Shown one piece after another: positions 16,366 to 22,928 of a stretch of DNA of 64,000 bases. Where the stretch lies: positions 620,001 to 684,000 of the forward strand of contig NZ_CVUA01000001.1 of NCBI RefSeq assembly GCF_001282785.1. Reading direction: 5' to 3'. A program made the position numbers and the translations under genes. The notes under the pieces were generated by a model, which made no database searches, was not told the origin of the DNA, and was given only the letters and a program-made list of their open reading frames with translations. Each line of letters starts with the position of its first letter. Within the stretch, counting starts at the first letter, position 1. Origin of the DNA: Halolamina sediminis. GTDB lineage: Archaea > Halobacteriota > Halobacteria > Halobacteriales > Haloferacaceae.

Positions 16366-17232
16366 CTACCCCTTCCGGTGGCGCTTCCGATGGCAGTTCG
16401 CACAGAGGACCTCACACCGCTGGATCTCGCGGTACACCCGTGGCGTTCCGTACCCCTCCGAGATGAGCCGGCTCACGGTGAGATCCTTCTCGGCCTCGTC
16501 GACGTGGTGGAAATCCAGTACGGCCCCGTCTTTCACCCCACAGCTCGCACAGCCGCGTGCCTCCTTGTACTCGTTCGCCCAGATTCGGCGCCTGTCGGGA
16601 CTGACGACTTCGAACGTCTCCCCGTTTGGTCGTTCGCCGACGAGACGAGCGGGCTCTTTCCGAAGCTCGATATCTATCCTGAGGTTCGACGGGCTGACGT
16701 GCTCGCGGCGGTGACAGTTGGCACAGAGCACCTCACACTTCTCGATCTCCGACCGAAGCCGCTCTTTTGACACCTCCTGTAGAACCAGACGACTCACTTT
16801 CTCGTCTTTTCGGTCGGTATCCTGATGGTGAAAGTCGAGAACGTCGGGGTCAGATTCACCACATCTGGCACAGCCTTTCGAGGCTTTTCGCTCGGCGACC
16901 CACTCGCGGCGTTCCGTACGCCTGCGCCGCGTCCGCTCGGTGTTCCACTCCCGGTTCCGGTAGTGCCAGCGTTGATCGACCGACAGCTCTCCCCATCGCT
17001 CGCGAACCTCGTCGTCGATCCCCTCCGGCGGCGGCCCGACCCGACTGCCGGTCGAGGCGTTGGTCGACAGCCCGGCGCGTTCCTTCGCGTCGTTCCAGCC
17101 GCCGATGGTGCGGATGATCGTCGCCGACGCCGGCGTCAGCCCGAGCGCCTCGTACTCGGCTTTCGTCGGCGACGCGCCAAGTTCCCGCGCCGCCTCGCGG
17201 AGGGCGTCGATGCAGTCCTCCTCGTCGACCAT
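16366..17232 (-). CDS. Double-HNH endonuclease-like protein
   Basis: A 288-residue protein with two complete HNH-type zinc/metal modules. Module 1 (about 121-178) runs from CARCGESDPDVLDFHHQD to CEVLCANCHRREH. Module 2 (about 228-285) runs from CASCGVKDGAVLDFHHVD to CEVLCANCHRKRH. The close match between them indicates internal duplication. Residues 1-55 (ALREAARELGASPTKAEYEA, TIIRTIGGWNDAKERAGL) resemble the helical DNA-binding repeat found with homing endonucleases. The middle is very basic. The start is ATG at 17232. Its position next to tRNA-Gln suggests mobile-element ancestry, but no partner genes or att duplication are seen. Nuclease activity is inferred, not shown. Confidence 0.75.
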   Translation of the reverse strand: MVDEEDCIDALREAARELGASPTKAEYEALGLTPASATIIRTIGGWNDAKERAGLSTNASTGSRVGPPPEGIDDEVRERWGELSVDQRWHYRNREWNTERTRRRRTERREWVAERKASKGCARCGESDPDVLDFHHQDTDRKDEKVSRLVLQEVSKERLRSEIEKCEVLCANCHRREHVSPSNLRIDIELRKEPARLVGERPNGETFEVVSPDRRRIWANEYKEARGCASCGVKDGAVLDFHHVDEAEKDLTVSRLISEGYGTPRVYREIQRCEVLCANCHRKRHRKG

Positions 17233-17277
17233 GGATTCGCAATGACCGACTACAAGAAAAAGCCTACTGCGAGGGTG

Positions 17278-17832
17278 CTACCCGAGCAGGTAGCGCATCC
17301 ACGGGTAGCGCTCGATCAACGCTCGGCCGTCGATCTCGTACTGCTCGATGTAGGCGTCCAGCCCGAGGATCCGGCCCGCGCCGAAGGCGGCGACGGCCAG
17401 GAACACGAGCATGTACGCGAAGTCGCCGTTGATGTAGCCGTGGTCGACGCTCCAGTTGCCCAGGTAGAACATGAGCATCATGAACGCGCCCCAGAACGCG
17501 GCGAGGCGGGTGAGGCCGCCGACGAGCAGGCCCAGCCCGATGAGCACCTCACCCCACGGGACCGCGACGTTCACGAAGTCGAGGAACAGCCCTGACGAGC
17601 CCATCGCCTCGAACAAGCCGGCGGCGGGACTGCCGTTCGCCGCGGGGGCGTTGTTGAGGTAGCCGGCGGCCGAAAAGCTCCCGCTGAGGACCTTGTCGAT
17701 GCCGCTCTGGAGGAACGCCAGCCCCATCATCAACCGCAGCGCGAGGATGAACCACACGCTCAGGGTGTGGAGTTTCCCCTCCGCGGTGAACCCTGCGACC
17801 GTACTTCGGAGTCGGACTTCCTGTGTTGCCAT
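17278..17832 (-). CDS. DoxX/DoxD family membrane protein
   Basis: A 184-residue integral membrane protein with about four hydrophobic segments, including [39 protein letters not shown] and [20 protein letters not shown]. It matches the DoxX-like family, some members of which are thiosulfate:quinone oxidoreductase subunits; most haloarchaeal members have no known role. The ATG at 17832 is chosen over an in-frame start 11 codons upstream because the latter would extend into the shared promoter of purO, which is divergently transcribed. Confidence 0.82.
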
Positions 17833-17959
17833 ATCTGGACGTTCGGCCCGTACGGGCTTAGCCAAGATGGCGGTTCCCGACAGGTGGGAACCACCGTACT
17901 CCCGGTTTTCGCCGATCGAGAATCACCACCTACTTGCCGGTCTACCCCACAGAGACGGT

Positions 17960-18541
17960 ATGTACGTCGGCCGCTTCCTCGTCGCCGCCCCGGGACTGGC
18001 AGCCTACCGCGTCTCCTCGCGTTCGTTCCCGAACCGGAAAGTCATCGAGCGCGACGGCAGCCTCACCGTCGTCCCGACCGACGACGCCGAGCCCACGGAC
18101 AACCCCTACGTCTCCTACAACTGCGTCCGGACGGTCGACGACCGGGGGATCACGGTCGTCGGCAACGGCTCCCACGTCGACCCGGTGGCGGAGAAGCTCG
18201 GGCTGGGCTACCCCGCCCGGGACGCGCTCGTGAGCGCGCTGTTCGCGCTGGACTTCGAGAAAGACGACTACGACACGCCTCGGATCGCTGCGGTCGTCGG
18301 CGCCGACTCCGCGGTCGTCGGCACCGTCCGCCGGGACGCCCTGCTCGTTCGCGAGGTCGAGGAGCCGACGCTGGTGGCGACGTACGAGAAGGACGACCCC
18401 GAGCCGTTCGCGCTCGCCGCCGACGGCGCCGCGGCAGCCGCCCGTGAGCTGTACGACCACGCGTTCGAACACGCCGTCTGTGCGGCGGGCGTGAGCGTCG
18501 ACGCCGCGGGGATCGAGACGGCGATCCACAACGGCGAGTAG
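17960..18541 (+). CDS. purO: Archaeal IMP cyclohydrolase PurO
   Basis: A 193-residue cytoplasmic enzyme that closes the ring of FAICAR to give IMP, the last step of purine synthesis. It is unrelated in sequence to bacterial PurH. Typical segments are [20 protein letters not shown] near the start, [10 protein letters not shown] and [13 protein letters not shown]. The length is near the usual 200 residues. The start is ATG at 17960. It is divergent from the DoxX gene and sits 37 bases before the phosphoesterase, with which it may be co-transcribed. Confidence 0.92.
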
Positions 18542-18578
18542 CGCGACGCTTTTCCCGATCGCGCTGTTTTCGCCCCCC

Positions 18579-19238
18579 GTGCAACTCGGGGTCATCTCTG
18601 ACGTACACGGCAATCTCCCCGCGCTGGAGCGGGTGCTCGAAGCGATGCCGTCGGTCGACATGCTCGTCTGTGCTGGCGACGTGGTCGGCTACAACCCCTG
18701 GCCGGCGGCCTGTGTCGACGCGGTTCGGGACCGCGGGGTCCCGACGGTGCAGGGAAACCACGACCGCGCGGTCGCCAACGCCGACGCCGCCGGCTTCAAC
18801 GGGATGGCGAAAGCCGGCGTCGACTACGCCCGCGAGCAGCTCGGCGCGGAGGCCGTCGACTGGCTCGGCGCGCTGCCGACCGAGCGTCGCGTGGCCGACG
18901 GCCGGGTGAAGATCGTCCACGGCCACCCCGACGACCCGGACCACTACACGTATCCGCGCGAGTTCGCGGCCGGGCTGCTCGACGACGAGGAGCTCCTGAT
19001 CATGGGCCACACGCACGTCCAGCACCACGCCGTGTTCAGTGAGGGAATCGTCCTCAATCCCGGTAGCGTCGGGCAGCCGCGTGACCGCGACTCCGACGCG
19101 GCGTACGCGGTCGTCGACCTCGACGACCGCTCGGTCGCGGAGTACCGCGTGAGCTACGACGTCGACCGGGTCGTCGACGCTGTCGAGGACACCGGTCTCC
19201 CGACCGATATCGGCGAACGGCTTCGAGAGGGCCGCTGA
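18579..19238 (+). CDS. Metallophosphoesterase (YfcE/MJ0936-like)
   Basis: A 219-residue calcineurin-like phosphoesterase. All family metal motifs are present: GVISDVHGN (Asp8, His10), CAGDVVGYNP, QGNHDRAV, VHGHPDD and GHTHVQ. Members are cytoplasmic and hydrolyse phosphodiesters or nucleotides; the natural substrate is unknown. The GTG start at 18579 is the first codon that gives a complete MQLGVISDVHG-type N-terminus. Confidence 0.88.
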   Translation: MQLGVISDVHGNLPALERVLEAMPSVDMLVCAGDVVGYNPWPAACVDAVRDRGVPTVQGNHDRAVANADAAGFNGMAKAGVDYAREQLGAEAVDWLGALPTERRVADGRVKIVHGHPDDPDHYTYPREFAAGLLDDEELLIMGHTHVQHHAVFSEGIVLNPGSVGQPRDRDSDAAYAVVDLDDRSVAEYRVSYDVDRVVDAVEDTGLPTDIGERLREGR

Positions 19239-19328
19239 CGCTCGTTCTTCCGACACACTGCGCTCGTTCTCCCCGCCAGTTCTCGCCGAACAGCGACGCG
19301 TCGACCCGTCTACCCGCCGTTAGTAAAC

Positions 19329-19335
19329 TATATTT
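19329..19335 (+). promoter_or_regulatory. Putative TATA box upstream of the nrdA leader
   Basis: TATATTT preceded by GTAAAC is the best TATA-like element between the phosphoesterase and nrdA. It predicts transcription starting near 19355-19360, which would leave a leader of about 130 bases before the nrdA ATG. That is long for a haloarchaeal gene. Confidence 0.5.
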
Positions 19336-19356
19336 GCACTACTACAATCTAACTGG

Positions 19357-19488
19357 GAAACGCTTAACCCGGTCGCCGAAAAGCGGGCATACGGCGAGAC
19401 CCGGTTCGCGGGAGCGAGCCGAAACCGACAGATGGCGATGCCGTAAGTGGCAACGCTGTCGGTCGCTTCCGGCGGGTCCGCCGCGGAC
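19357..19488 (+). promoter_or_regulatory. Structured 5' leader of the ribonucleotide reductase operon (candidate cis-regulatory RNA)
   Basis: Two extensive stems can be drawn. In stem 1, GGT-CGCCG (19371-19378) pairs with CGGCG-AG-ACC (19392-19401), with a two-base bulge. In stem 2, ACCGACAG (19424-19431) pairs perfectly with CTGTCGGT (19456-19463). Stem 2 extends through GCCGAA (19418-19423) with TTC-C-GGC (19467-19473), and encloses an inner TGCC-GTAAGT-GGCA hairpin. An alternative in-frame GTG start (19447) lies in the inner loop. I do not see a cobalamin-riboswitch core or B12 box, nor any other known riboswitch. Function is inferred only from structure and location. Confidence 0.5.
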
Positions 19489-21933
19489 ATGACCCAGGCA
19501 AACCCATCGACGACTGACCGAATCGAGGACCGACTCGCCGCGGCGACAGCGGATCTCGACCTCGCGAGCGACCGCGAGGCGCTCGCCCGCGCGGCCGAGC
19601 GCGACAGCTACGACGGCGCCGACGCCGACGAGATCGACGAGGCGCTGATCGGCGTGCTGACCGCGCGTACCGAGCGCGACCCCGCTCACGACGACGCGGC
19701 CGCGCGGGTCGCGCGCTGGCGCCACGCCCGGAACGTGACCGGCACGGACGGCCCGCTCTCGGGCGAGATCTACCGCGCGTCGTTCGTGGACGCGATCGAG
19801 ACCGGCGTCGAGCGCGGCCTGCTCGACGGGCGGATGGCTGAGTACGACTTGGAGTCGCTCGCCCACGCGCTCGTCCCCGAGCGCGACGAGCAGTTCGGCT
19901 ACATGGCCGTCTCGACGCTGGTCCAGCGCTACTTCCTCCGGACTGTCGAGGAGGACGACCCCCTCGAACTCCCACAGGCGTTCTGGATGCGCGTCGCGAT
20001 GGGCGTCGCCCTCGCGGAGGACCCCGAGGACCGCGAGGCCCGCGCGGTGGAGTTCTACGACGCGCTCTCGACGCTACGTTTCGTCCATTCGACGCCGACC
20101 CTGTTCCACGCCGGCACCACCCACCCACAGCTCTCCTCCTGCTACCTCACGACGGTACAGGACGATCTGGCGGACATCTTCGACTCCTACAAGGCCCACG
20201 CGAAGCTCTCGAAGTGGTCCGGCGGGCTCGGCAACGACTGGACGAACGTCCGCGCCGAGGGGTCGCTGATCGAGTCCACCGGCGTCGAGTCGACGGGCGT
20301 GATCCCGTTCCTCAACATCTCCGACGACGTGACCGGCGCGATCAACCGCTCCGGGAAGCGCCGCGGCGCCGCCTGCGCGTACCTCGCGGCGTGGCACCTC
20401 GACTTCCCGGCGTTTCTCGACCTGAAGCGCAACACGGGCGACGAGCGCCGGCGCACCCACGAGATGAACACCGCGGCGTGGGTGCCGGACCTGTTCATGA
20501 AGCGCGTCCGGGCCGGCGAGCAGTGGACGCTGTTTTCGCCCGACGAAGTGCCCGAGCTCCACGAGGCCACGGGGCGAAAGTTCGAGGAGCTGTACGAGCA
20601 GTACGAGCAGGCGGCCGACGACGGCGAACTCCGGCAGTACGAGCGCGTCGAGGCCGAGGAGCTCTGGCGGACGATGCTCACCCGGCTGTTCGAGACGGGT
20701 CACCCGTGGATCACGTTCAAGGACCCCTGTAACGTCCGCTCGCCGCAGGACCACTACGGGACGATCAACAGCTCGAACCTCTGTACGGAGATCACGCTCA
20801 ACACCTCACAGGACGAGACGGCGGTCTGTAACCTCGGTTCGGTCAATCTCGCGAAACACGTCGACGGCGACGGACTCGACGACGACGCACTCGAAGACAC
20901 CGTCGAGACGGCGATGCGGATGCTCGACAACGTCGTCGACCTGAACTTCTACCCGACCGACCGCGCCGAGCGCGCGAACACGCGCCACCGACCCGTCGGC
21001 CTCGGCGTGATGGGGTTCCACGAGATGCTGACCGAACGCGGCGTCGGGATGGCCAGCGACGAGGCGCTCGACGTGGCCGACGAGACGATGGAGCGGGTCG
21101 CCTACCACGCGATTCTGAACTCCTCGCGACTCGCGAAGGAACGCGGCACGTACGACTCCTACGAGGGGTCGAAGTGGGACCGCGGGCTGCTCCCGCAGGA
21201 CACGATTTCGTTGCTGGAGGAAGAGCGCGGCGAGCCCGTCGACGTAGAGCCCGAGGAACGCCTCGACTGGAGCGAGGTGCGCGAGCACGTCGCCGAGCAC
21301 GGGATGCGCAACTCCAACACCACCGCGGTCGCGCCGACGGCGACCATCTCGACCATCGCGGGCACCACTCCCTCGATCGAGCCCCGGTACTCGAACCTCT
21401 ACGTGAAGTCGAACATGAGCGGCGACTTCACGGTCGTCAACGAGCACCTCGTCGAGGAGCTGGACGAACTGGGGCTCTGGACCGACGAGATGCGCGACGA
21501 GATCAAGTTCCACGACGGCGCGATTCAGGAGATCGAGTCGATCCCGCCGGCGATCCGGGAGCACCACCGCGGCGCCTTCGAGATCGACCCGCGCCACCAG
21601 CTCGAACTCACCGCCCGGCGGGCGATCTGGGTCGACCAGTCCCAGAGTCACAACGTGTTCTTCCCGTCCACGGACGGCACGCTGCTGGACGACGTGTACC
21701 AGCGCGCGTGGGAGCTCGGCCTGAAAACGACGTACTACCTGCGCACCCTCGGCGCGAGCCAGTTCGAGAAGTCGACGCTGGACATGGAGGAGTACGGCCG
21801 GACCCAGCGCCGCGACGCGGACGGCGACGGGAGCGAAGACGACCCGACCGAGCCGGCCACCGACGGCGGCGAATCGAACGACGGCTCGGAGCTCCCGAGC
21901 GTCGAGGACCCAACCTGCGAGGCCTGTCAGTAA
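19489..21933 (+). CDS. nrdA: Ribonucleoside-diphosphate reductase class I, large (catalytic) subunit
   Basis: An 814-residue enzyme that reduces ribonucleotides to deoxyribonucleotides together with NrdB. All catalytic residues are visible. The radical cysteine is Cys432 in the NLCTE segment, with Asn430 and Glu434. The redox pair is Cys218 (SSCYLTT) and Cys447 (AVCNLGS). The C-terminal CEACQ supplies Cys810/Cys813 for re-reduction. No clear ATP-cone is seen in the acidic N-terminal 90 residues, so overall activity control by dATP may be absent. The ATG at 19489 is preferred; GTG 19447 lies within the leader hairpin. Its TAA overlaps the nrdB ATG by one base. Confidence 0.92.
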   Translation: MTQANPSTTDRIEDRLAAATADLDLASDREALARAAERDSYDGADADEIDEALIGVLTARTERDPAHDDAAARVARWRHARNVTGTDGPLSGEIYRASFVDAIETGVERGLLDGRMAEYDLESLAHALVPERDEQFGYMAVSTLVQRYFLRTVEEDDPLELPQAFWMRVAMGVALAEDPEDREARAVEFYDALSTLRFVHSTPTLFHAGTTHPQLSSCYLTTVQDDLADIFDSYKAHAKLSKWSGGLGNDWTNVRAEGSLIESTGVESTGVIPFLNISDDVTGAINRSGKRRGAACAYLAAWHLDFPAFLDLKRNTGDERRRTHEMNTAAWVPDLFMKRVRAGEQWTLFSPDEVPELHEATGRKFEELYEQYEQAADDGELRQYERVEAEELWRTMLTRLFETGHPWITFKDPCNVRSPQDHYGTINSSNLCTEITLNTSQDETAVCNLGSVNLAKHVDGDGLDDDALEDTVETAMRMLDNVVDLNFYPTDRAERANTRHRPVGLGVMGFHEMLTERGVGMASDEALDVADETMERVAYHAILNSSRLAKERGTYDSYEGSKWDRGLLPQDTISLLEEERGEPVDVEPEERLDWSEVREHVAEHGMRNSNTTAVAPTATISTIAGTTPSIEPRYSNLYVKSNMSGDFTVVNEHLVEELDELGLWTDEMRDEIKFHDGAIQEIESIPPAIREHHRGAFEIDPRHQLELTARRAIWVDQSQSHNVFFPSTDGTLLDDVYQRAWELGLKTTYYLRTLGASQFEKSTLDMEEYGRTQRRDADGDGSEDDPTEPATDGGESNDGSELPSVEDPTCEACQ

Positions 21934-22928
21934 TGCCGATCGACTACCTCACCGACGGCGACACGCACGACCCGAACAAGATCCTGCCCATCGACTACGA
22001 GTGGGCCCGCGAGTACTACGAGGCGGGCGTCGACAACAACTGGGTGCCCGAGGAGATCCCCATGGGCAACGACGTGACCCAGTGGAACGGCGACGAGCTC
22101 AGCGACGCCGAGCGCCGGCTGGTCGAGTGGAACCTCGGCTTCTTCTCGACTGCGGAGTCGCTGACCGCGAACAACATCGTGCTCGCGGTGTACGACCACG
22201 TGACGGCGCCGGAGTGTCGGCAGTATCTCCTGCGGCAGGCGTACGAGGAGGCGGTCCACACGGACACGTTCATCTACTGCTGTGACTCGCTGGGGTTCGA
22301 CCCCGACTACCTCTACGGGATGTACGACCGAATTCCCGCGATCGAGGCCAAAGACGAGTTCGTCGTCGACCTCACGCGGGTCGTCGACGACCCCGAGTTC
22401 ACGATCGACGACGAGGCCGACGTGCGGGCGTTCCTCCGGGACCTGATCGGCTTCTACGTCATCATGGAGGGGATCTTCTTCTACGCCGGCTTCGCGATGA
22501 TGCTCGGACTCAAGCGGCAGGGCAAACTGGAGGGGATCGGCCAGCAGTTCGAGTACATCATGCGCGACGAGTCGCTGCACCTCGGCTTCGGGATCGAGCT
22601 GATCGACGCGATCCGAGGGGAGACCGACGCGTGGACCGACGAGTTCGAGGCGGAGATTCGGGAGCTGATTCTCGACGCCGTCGAGCTCGAACAGCAGTAC
22701 GCTCGCGAGGCCTGCCCCGAGGAGATCCTCGGGATGGGGCCGACGCAGTTCGCGGAGTACGTCGAGTACGTCGCCGACCGGCGGCTCACCCAACTCGAGA
22801 TGGACGAGGCCTACGGCACCGAGAACCCGTTCCCGTGGCTCTCGGAGGCGGCCGACCTCAACCGCGAGAAGAACTTCTTCGAGACGCAGGTGACGGAGTA
22901 CCGCTCCGGGGGGTCGCTCGAATGGTGA
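21933..22928 (+). CDS. nrdB: Ribonucleoside-diphosphate reductase small subunit, class Ic-like (Phe in place of radical Tyr)
   Basis: A 331-residue ferritin-fold R2 protein that holds a dimetal cofactor and starts the radical in NrdA. The metal ligands are visible: Glu75 (FFSTAESL), Glu106 and His109 (YEEAVHTDTF), Glu179 (YVIMEGIFF), and Glu213 and His216 (RDESLHLGF). At the position of the E. coli radical Tyr122 (His+4) there is Phe113. The first ligand is Glu instead of Asp. Both are hallmarks of class Ic R2 of Chlamydia trachomatis, which uses a Mn/Fe centre without a tyrosyl radical. The gene overlaps nrdA by one base and the thioesterase by seven. Confidence 0.92.
   Translation: MPIDYLTDGDTHDPNKILPIDYEWAREYYEAGVDNNWVPEEIPMGNDVTQWNGDELSDAERRLVEWNLGFFSTAESLTANNIVLAVYDHVTAPECRQYLLRQAYEEAVHTDTFIYCCDSLGFDPDYLYGMYDRIPAIEAKDEFVVDLTRVVDDPEFTIDDEADVRAFLRDLIGFYVIMEGIFFYAGFAMMLGLKRQGKLEGIGQQFEYIMRDESLHLGFGIELIDAIRGETDAWTDEFEAEIRELILDAVELEQQYAREACPEEILGMGPTQFAEYVEYVADRRLTQLEMDEAYGTENPFPWLSEAADLNREKNFFETQVTEYRSGGSLEW

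Follow-up and report, generated by a model that had tools for sequence, protein, structure and literature searches.

Cobalamin riboswitches precede ribonucleotide reductase (RNR) operons in some bacteria, and the leader described here is like them in being a structured RNA in front of RNR genes. However, it has neither a cobalamin core nor a match in Rfam, and the enzyme encoded behind it is an archaeal one of class I. A second well described system is NrdR, a repressor that senses ATP and dATP and binds to NrdR boxes (PMC9110341). NrdR also controls RNR operons, and in some haloarchaea nrdR lies directly before nrdA. However, NrdR is a protein acting on DNA near the transcription start, whereas the motif of the nrdA leader lies inside the predicted transcript. 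Structured leaders are not typical of haloarchaea, and 72% of the protein-coding transcripts of H. volcanii are leaderless (PMC4983044). With the structured 5'-UTRs that haloarchaea do have, the nrdA leader shares a leadered transcript and possible translational control.

The window analysed here is a stretch of 64,000 nucleotides from Halolamina sediminis (contig NZ_CVUA01000001.1, positions 620,001 to 684,000), and all coordinates below refer to it unless another contig is named. With moderate confidence, close to an even balance, we suggest that the nrdA leader (about 19391-19488) acts in cis as a structured RNA and controls expression of nrdAB after transcription start. The best reading is that this control would act on nrdA translation or mRNA stability in haloarchaea that lack NrdR. 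Such an element would be a structured cis-regulatory leader. Leaders of this type are regarded as rare among haloarchaea, and in the literature that we searched there was no account of how deoxynucleotide supply is controlled in haloarchaea lacking NrdR, nor any published nrdA leader element of this kind.

The nrdA promoter and the limits of the leader

We compared about 90 haloarchaeal nrdA upstream regions, to which named loci were added; the features of the window are collected in Table 1. The nearest named NrdA proteins are those of Halolamina pelagica (95%) and H. rubra (93%). The ATG at 19489 is the start of nrdA, as its MSQ/MTQ N-terminus is kept in dozens of orthologues (MTQ here, MSQTT.. 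elsewhere). Because conservation of NrdA begins at this ATG and none was found at the protein level 5' of it among the orthologues compared, the region upstream is a leader and not an extension of the protein.

A promoter module, TTGGAAA-n2-TTTATnC (BRE/TATA), was common to about 50 orthologous leaders, and its counterpart in the window is TGGGAAAcgCTTAAC (19354-19368). Across genomes the order is TTGTACTACTGAAA, six bases, TTGGAAA (BRE), two bases and TTTATnC (TATA). The palindrome-like site directly 5' of the BRE (TTGTAnTnCTACAA / TTGTACTACTGAAA; consensus TTGTAcTACTgaAA, with TTGTAGttCTACAA in some genera) is common to the promoters of stand-alone nrdA and of many nrdR genes, and is probably a transcription-factor site. 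The spacing from TATA to the start is usually about 25 nt, so the TATA-like element places the predicted transcript start at about 19391. The sequence-only reading of this locus had let the leader begin at 19357, which falls inside the core promoter. It had described an untranslated, unusually long leader of about 130 bases; the leader is indeed untranslated, stably folded and long for a haloarchaeon, but the promoter alignment predicts about 98 nt (19391-19488) and not 132 nt. A start downstream of 19463 is not predicted.

Table 1. Positions of the genes, promoter elements and leader features in the window.
Feature	Positions	Strand	Basis or remark
Palindrome-like site TTGCACTACTACAA	19334..19347	+	Kept in almost every nrdA promoter and in many of nrdR
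BRE-like element TGGGAAA	19354..19360	+	Aligned with TTGGAAA kept in about 50 leaders
TATA-like element CTTAAC	19363..19368	+	Aligned with conserved TTTATnC
P1 5' arm, closing stem, at predicted transcript 5' end	19392..19403	+	RNAalifold and pair counts, five Halolamina leaders
P1 3' arm	19473..19483	+	Ends five bases before the ATG
H1 local hairpin CGGUUCGC-GGGA-GCGAGCCG	19402..19421	+	Mutually exclusive with P2
P2 5' arm CGGGAGCGA	19409..19417	+	Consensus fold; alternative to H1
P2 3' arm	19463..19471	+	Consensus fold
P3 5' arm	19430..19437	+	Consensus fold
P3 3' arm	19454..19461	+	Consensus fold
P4 5' arm	19439..19443	+	First P4 pair: U-A/C-G compensatory change
P4 3' arm	19448..19452	+	Consensus fold
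Deep motif AGTGGCAACGCTGTCG (consensus AGTGGCRACGCTGTC)	19446..19461	+	Forms the 3' side of P4-P3 in the window
nrdA, class I ribonucleotide reductase large subunit	19489..21933	+	Pfam PF02867, PF00317
nrdB, small subunit	21933..22928	+	Pfam PF00268; ATG overlaps the nrdA stop codon

Folding of the leader in Halolamina and other genera

The segment 19391-19500 folds more stably than expected (z -2.89, one of 200 shuffles as good), and the longer span proposed before was ordinary in this respect (z -1.53, 12 of 200 shuffles as good). The five Halolamina leaders share one closed-domain consensus fold, P1-P4, according to RNAalifold and pair counts, and 94.5% of the cells pair in it, compared to 33-52% with the partner slid. 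The optimum fold of single sequences varies among the species, and the five sequences alone do not settle the fold because the shuffle control of the consensus-fold tool was only weakly exceeded. The perfect 8-bp arm ACCGACAG/CTGTCGGT noticed earlier is present in this species, but we rejected it as a conserved helix because two of the eight pairs are disrupted in each of the four Halolamina relatives. The conserved pairing uses another register and adds the closing stem P1. Covariation among the relatives was found, although it is modest, with few compensated pairs in five sequences: two in P1 and one in P4. In the local hairpin H1, all eight pairs are retained in the five species, with one compensatory change of G-C to A-U in H. 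pelagica.

H1 and P2 might be two alternative folds of a new class of nucleotide-sensing riboswitch (for dATP/ATP, for example) that replaced NrdR in haloarchaea, which we consider very unlikely. The architecture of the leader would suit ligand sensing, and no ligand came to light in the analysis. With regard to known RNA families, a cmscan of Rfam to E=10 over 17000-22000 returned one unrelated sub-threshold match and no family above its gathering score, and a scan of 20 related loci gave no match in any leader. In neither scan did a leader give a cobalamin match, in agreement with the earlier observation that a cobalamin core is missing.

Stable stems come easily in DNA of 70% GC. Against column shuffles, which do not preserve dinucleotides, the consensus-fold z was -5.8 in Halolamina, -3.8 in Halalkalicoccus, -4.3 in group g5 and -4.1 in group g59, with coding and upstream controls in the same four genera between +1.0 and -1.9. 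The signal was weak or absent in Halococcus (-1.2), Halorubrum (-1.1) and Halorussus (-2.1), the last having coding controls that were also low, down to -3.5. When a covariance model was built on the Halolamina fold, it gave no confident match in other genera.

The stem between the 5' end and the stretch before the ATG is found more widely. When duplex energies were compared with those of dinucleotide shuffles in 49 leaders, a P1-type stem reached p<0.05 in 15 of them (mean z -1.23; p 8e-5 in a Fisher test that used a single leader from each genus group), although the pairing was first noticed in the same leaders and then tested, and these statistics are not from an independent set. The controls, in which the 5' end was set against coding sequence or upstream sequence against the 3' stretch, gave 2-3 of 49 leaders and mean z of 0.00 to -0.30, and among nrdR leaders such a stem was found in none of 19. 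The arms differ by genus (CGGC/GCCG; CGGTTC/GAACC; GCCGAGGAG/CTCCTCGGT), and in Halorubrum a U-A pair is exchanged for C-G. The closing stem and the motif described below are common across genera, and the interior fold differs. The proposal that a conserved structured RNA precedes nrdA is supported by the consensus folds of four genera, the compensatory pairs and the closing stem shared between genera.

The conserved motif and its relation to NrdR

The sole deeply conserved sequence of the leader is AGTGGCRACGCTGTC (19446-19460 in the window), present in about 53 of 60 stand-alone nrdA leaders. A protein, an RNA or a ligand likely recognises the leader at this sequence. A profile search of the motif-bearing leaders found it in the sense orientation in 41 of 53, in antisense in none of 53 and in the upstream control in 2 of 53. 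How far the motif lies from the promoter and from the ATG differs greatly between leaders, which is expected of a transcribed element. In some other genera the predicted folds show it as an AGUG-GCRA-CGCU mini-hairpin. However, a covarying GNRA hairpin was rejected because the changes are one-sided, without covariation. Pairing of its 3' side with upstream sequence was also rejected as a universal rule, since it occurs in a minority of leaders, those of Halolamina included, and complementarity to 16S rRNA was no better than that of shuffled motifs.

It is possible, but in our view unlikely, that the motif serves as a DNA operator within the leader, bound by a repressor that took over from NrdR, and that the RNA structure is a by-product of GC-rich DNA. 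The strong conservation of the motif sequence with little covariation would suit an operator, as would the two motif copies found in several leaders. The nrdR operons themselves apparently are under DNA-level control: by eye, nrdR leaders have, close to the predicted start, pairs of CCACATAT(T/A)G sites separated by about 29-31 bp (nrdR loci among L036-L092, and L254, L255, L257 and L281-L306). These are probably the NrdR boxes of an operon that regulates itself, and no such paired sites were noted by eye in the stand-alone nrdA leaders inspected. However, the motif is non-palindromic, always on the same strand, and 75-183 bp downstream of the BRE in nearly all leaders. An operator also leaves the stem between the 5' end and the pre-ATG stretch unexplained, as well as the copies after transposase genes of two insertion sequence (IS) families.

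NrdR was found in 10 of 60 genomes with a class I nrdA (or a remnant of it). In 8 of these 10, nrdR lies directly before nrdA and the motif is absent from the nrdA leader; the leader and nrdR are nearly mutually exclusive. The H. sediminis genome itself has no TIGR00244 match for nrdR. The two exceptions are G170, where nrdR is located elsewhere, and G210, of the same genus as the window, in which nrdR is also elsewhere and the nrdA promoter and leader remain. At this G210 locus (L149), most of nrdA has apparently been deleted and its start apparently joined to nrdB.

This exclusion bears on a simpler explanation, that the leader is a plain stable 5' hairpin giving constitutive mRNA protection or lower translation, and that the motif serves an unrelated host factor. 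The structure is stable yet variable among genera, no conserved ligand pocket was found and Rfam has no match, all of which would agree with a plain hairpin. However, the near exclusion with nrdR, the conservation of the motif over many genera and the position before class I RNR genes suggest regulation, and we regard the plain hairpin as quite unlikely.

The motif also resembles the beginning of nrdR. Haloarchaeal nrdR genes begin with AGTGACAACYATG and their probable start is a GTG that follows GGAGG at a distance of 8 nt; the motif, read as GTG GCR ACG CTG, is similar to their start GTG ACA ACY ATG. In L044, from a genome that has no nrdR, the leader reads VTTTNYPDCGN where nrdR has VTTMNCPDCGN, and that of L062 reads VPTMHC. 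The L044 leader is clearly what is left of an nrdR start, so the loss of nrdR gave rise to at least some of the stand-alone leaders. The motif might then be a relic or a reused translation start of the lost gene, giving at most a short upstream frame coupled to nrdA. However, there is no coding signal 3' of the motif (4, 8 and 3 stops, counted frame by frame, and no excess at the third position), and coding sequence or a leader peptide was rejected on this ground. The leaders keep no common frame relative to nrdA, the GTG is missing in 10 of 53 of them, and none of the motif-bearing leaders has C as the third letter of GCR. Moreover, a functionless remnant would not persist over some 20 genus groups. 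We are doubtful of the relic and give it a low probability.

Returning to the structured cis-acting RNA that we prefer, we propose that P1 joins the 5' end of the transcript to the pre-ATG stretch and thereby closes a domain that would present AGUGGCRACGCUGUC. P1 and the helices stacked on it may hold the region before the AUG shut, or they may shield the 5' end. Because P1 closes to five bases before the AUG, ribosome access or decay from the 5' end could depend on the fold. A trans-acting protein, RNA or small ligand might bind the motif and shift the fold, and translation or the life of the mRNA would change. In haloarchaea lacking NrdR, the leader may in this way replace the nucleotide-sensing repressor. 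The closing stem and the 16-base motif make the element a defined and mutable target, in genera near to genetically tractable haloarchaea.

Motif copies elsewhere in genomes

The exact motif AGTGGCRACGCTGTCG was also found 30 or 37 bases past the stop of transposase genes, in the sense orientation, in two apparently unrelated IS families (L129-L148, L096, L113 and L153-L160), often with many copies per genome. In one of these families the motif runs into a long hairpin. The sense orientation behind transposase genes, with surroundings that are otherwise diverged, favours recognition at the RNA level and points to a common RNA-level factor. Near one IS copy, L143:247-411 matches Rfam sot0042, a sense overlapping transcript RNA.

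In the H. sediminis genome the exact 16-mer AGTGGCRACGCTGTCG occurs once, in the nrdA leader, and a looser form is found at two further sites, of which the first lies between convergent genes and the second apparently within a gene; a motif regulon in this genome was thus rejected. The near copy between convergent genes, AGTGGCGACGCTGGC (G000:C1:2045055-2045069, L127), may be due to chance; it lies 3' of a gene whose end resembles a ribosomal P1/L12 protein. The DNA matches L003, L004 and L006 were dismissed as chance, lying inside apparent coding sequence. Matches to the motif also occur on viral contigs, and viral NrdA loci were found as well.
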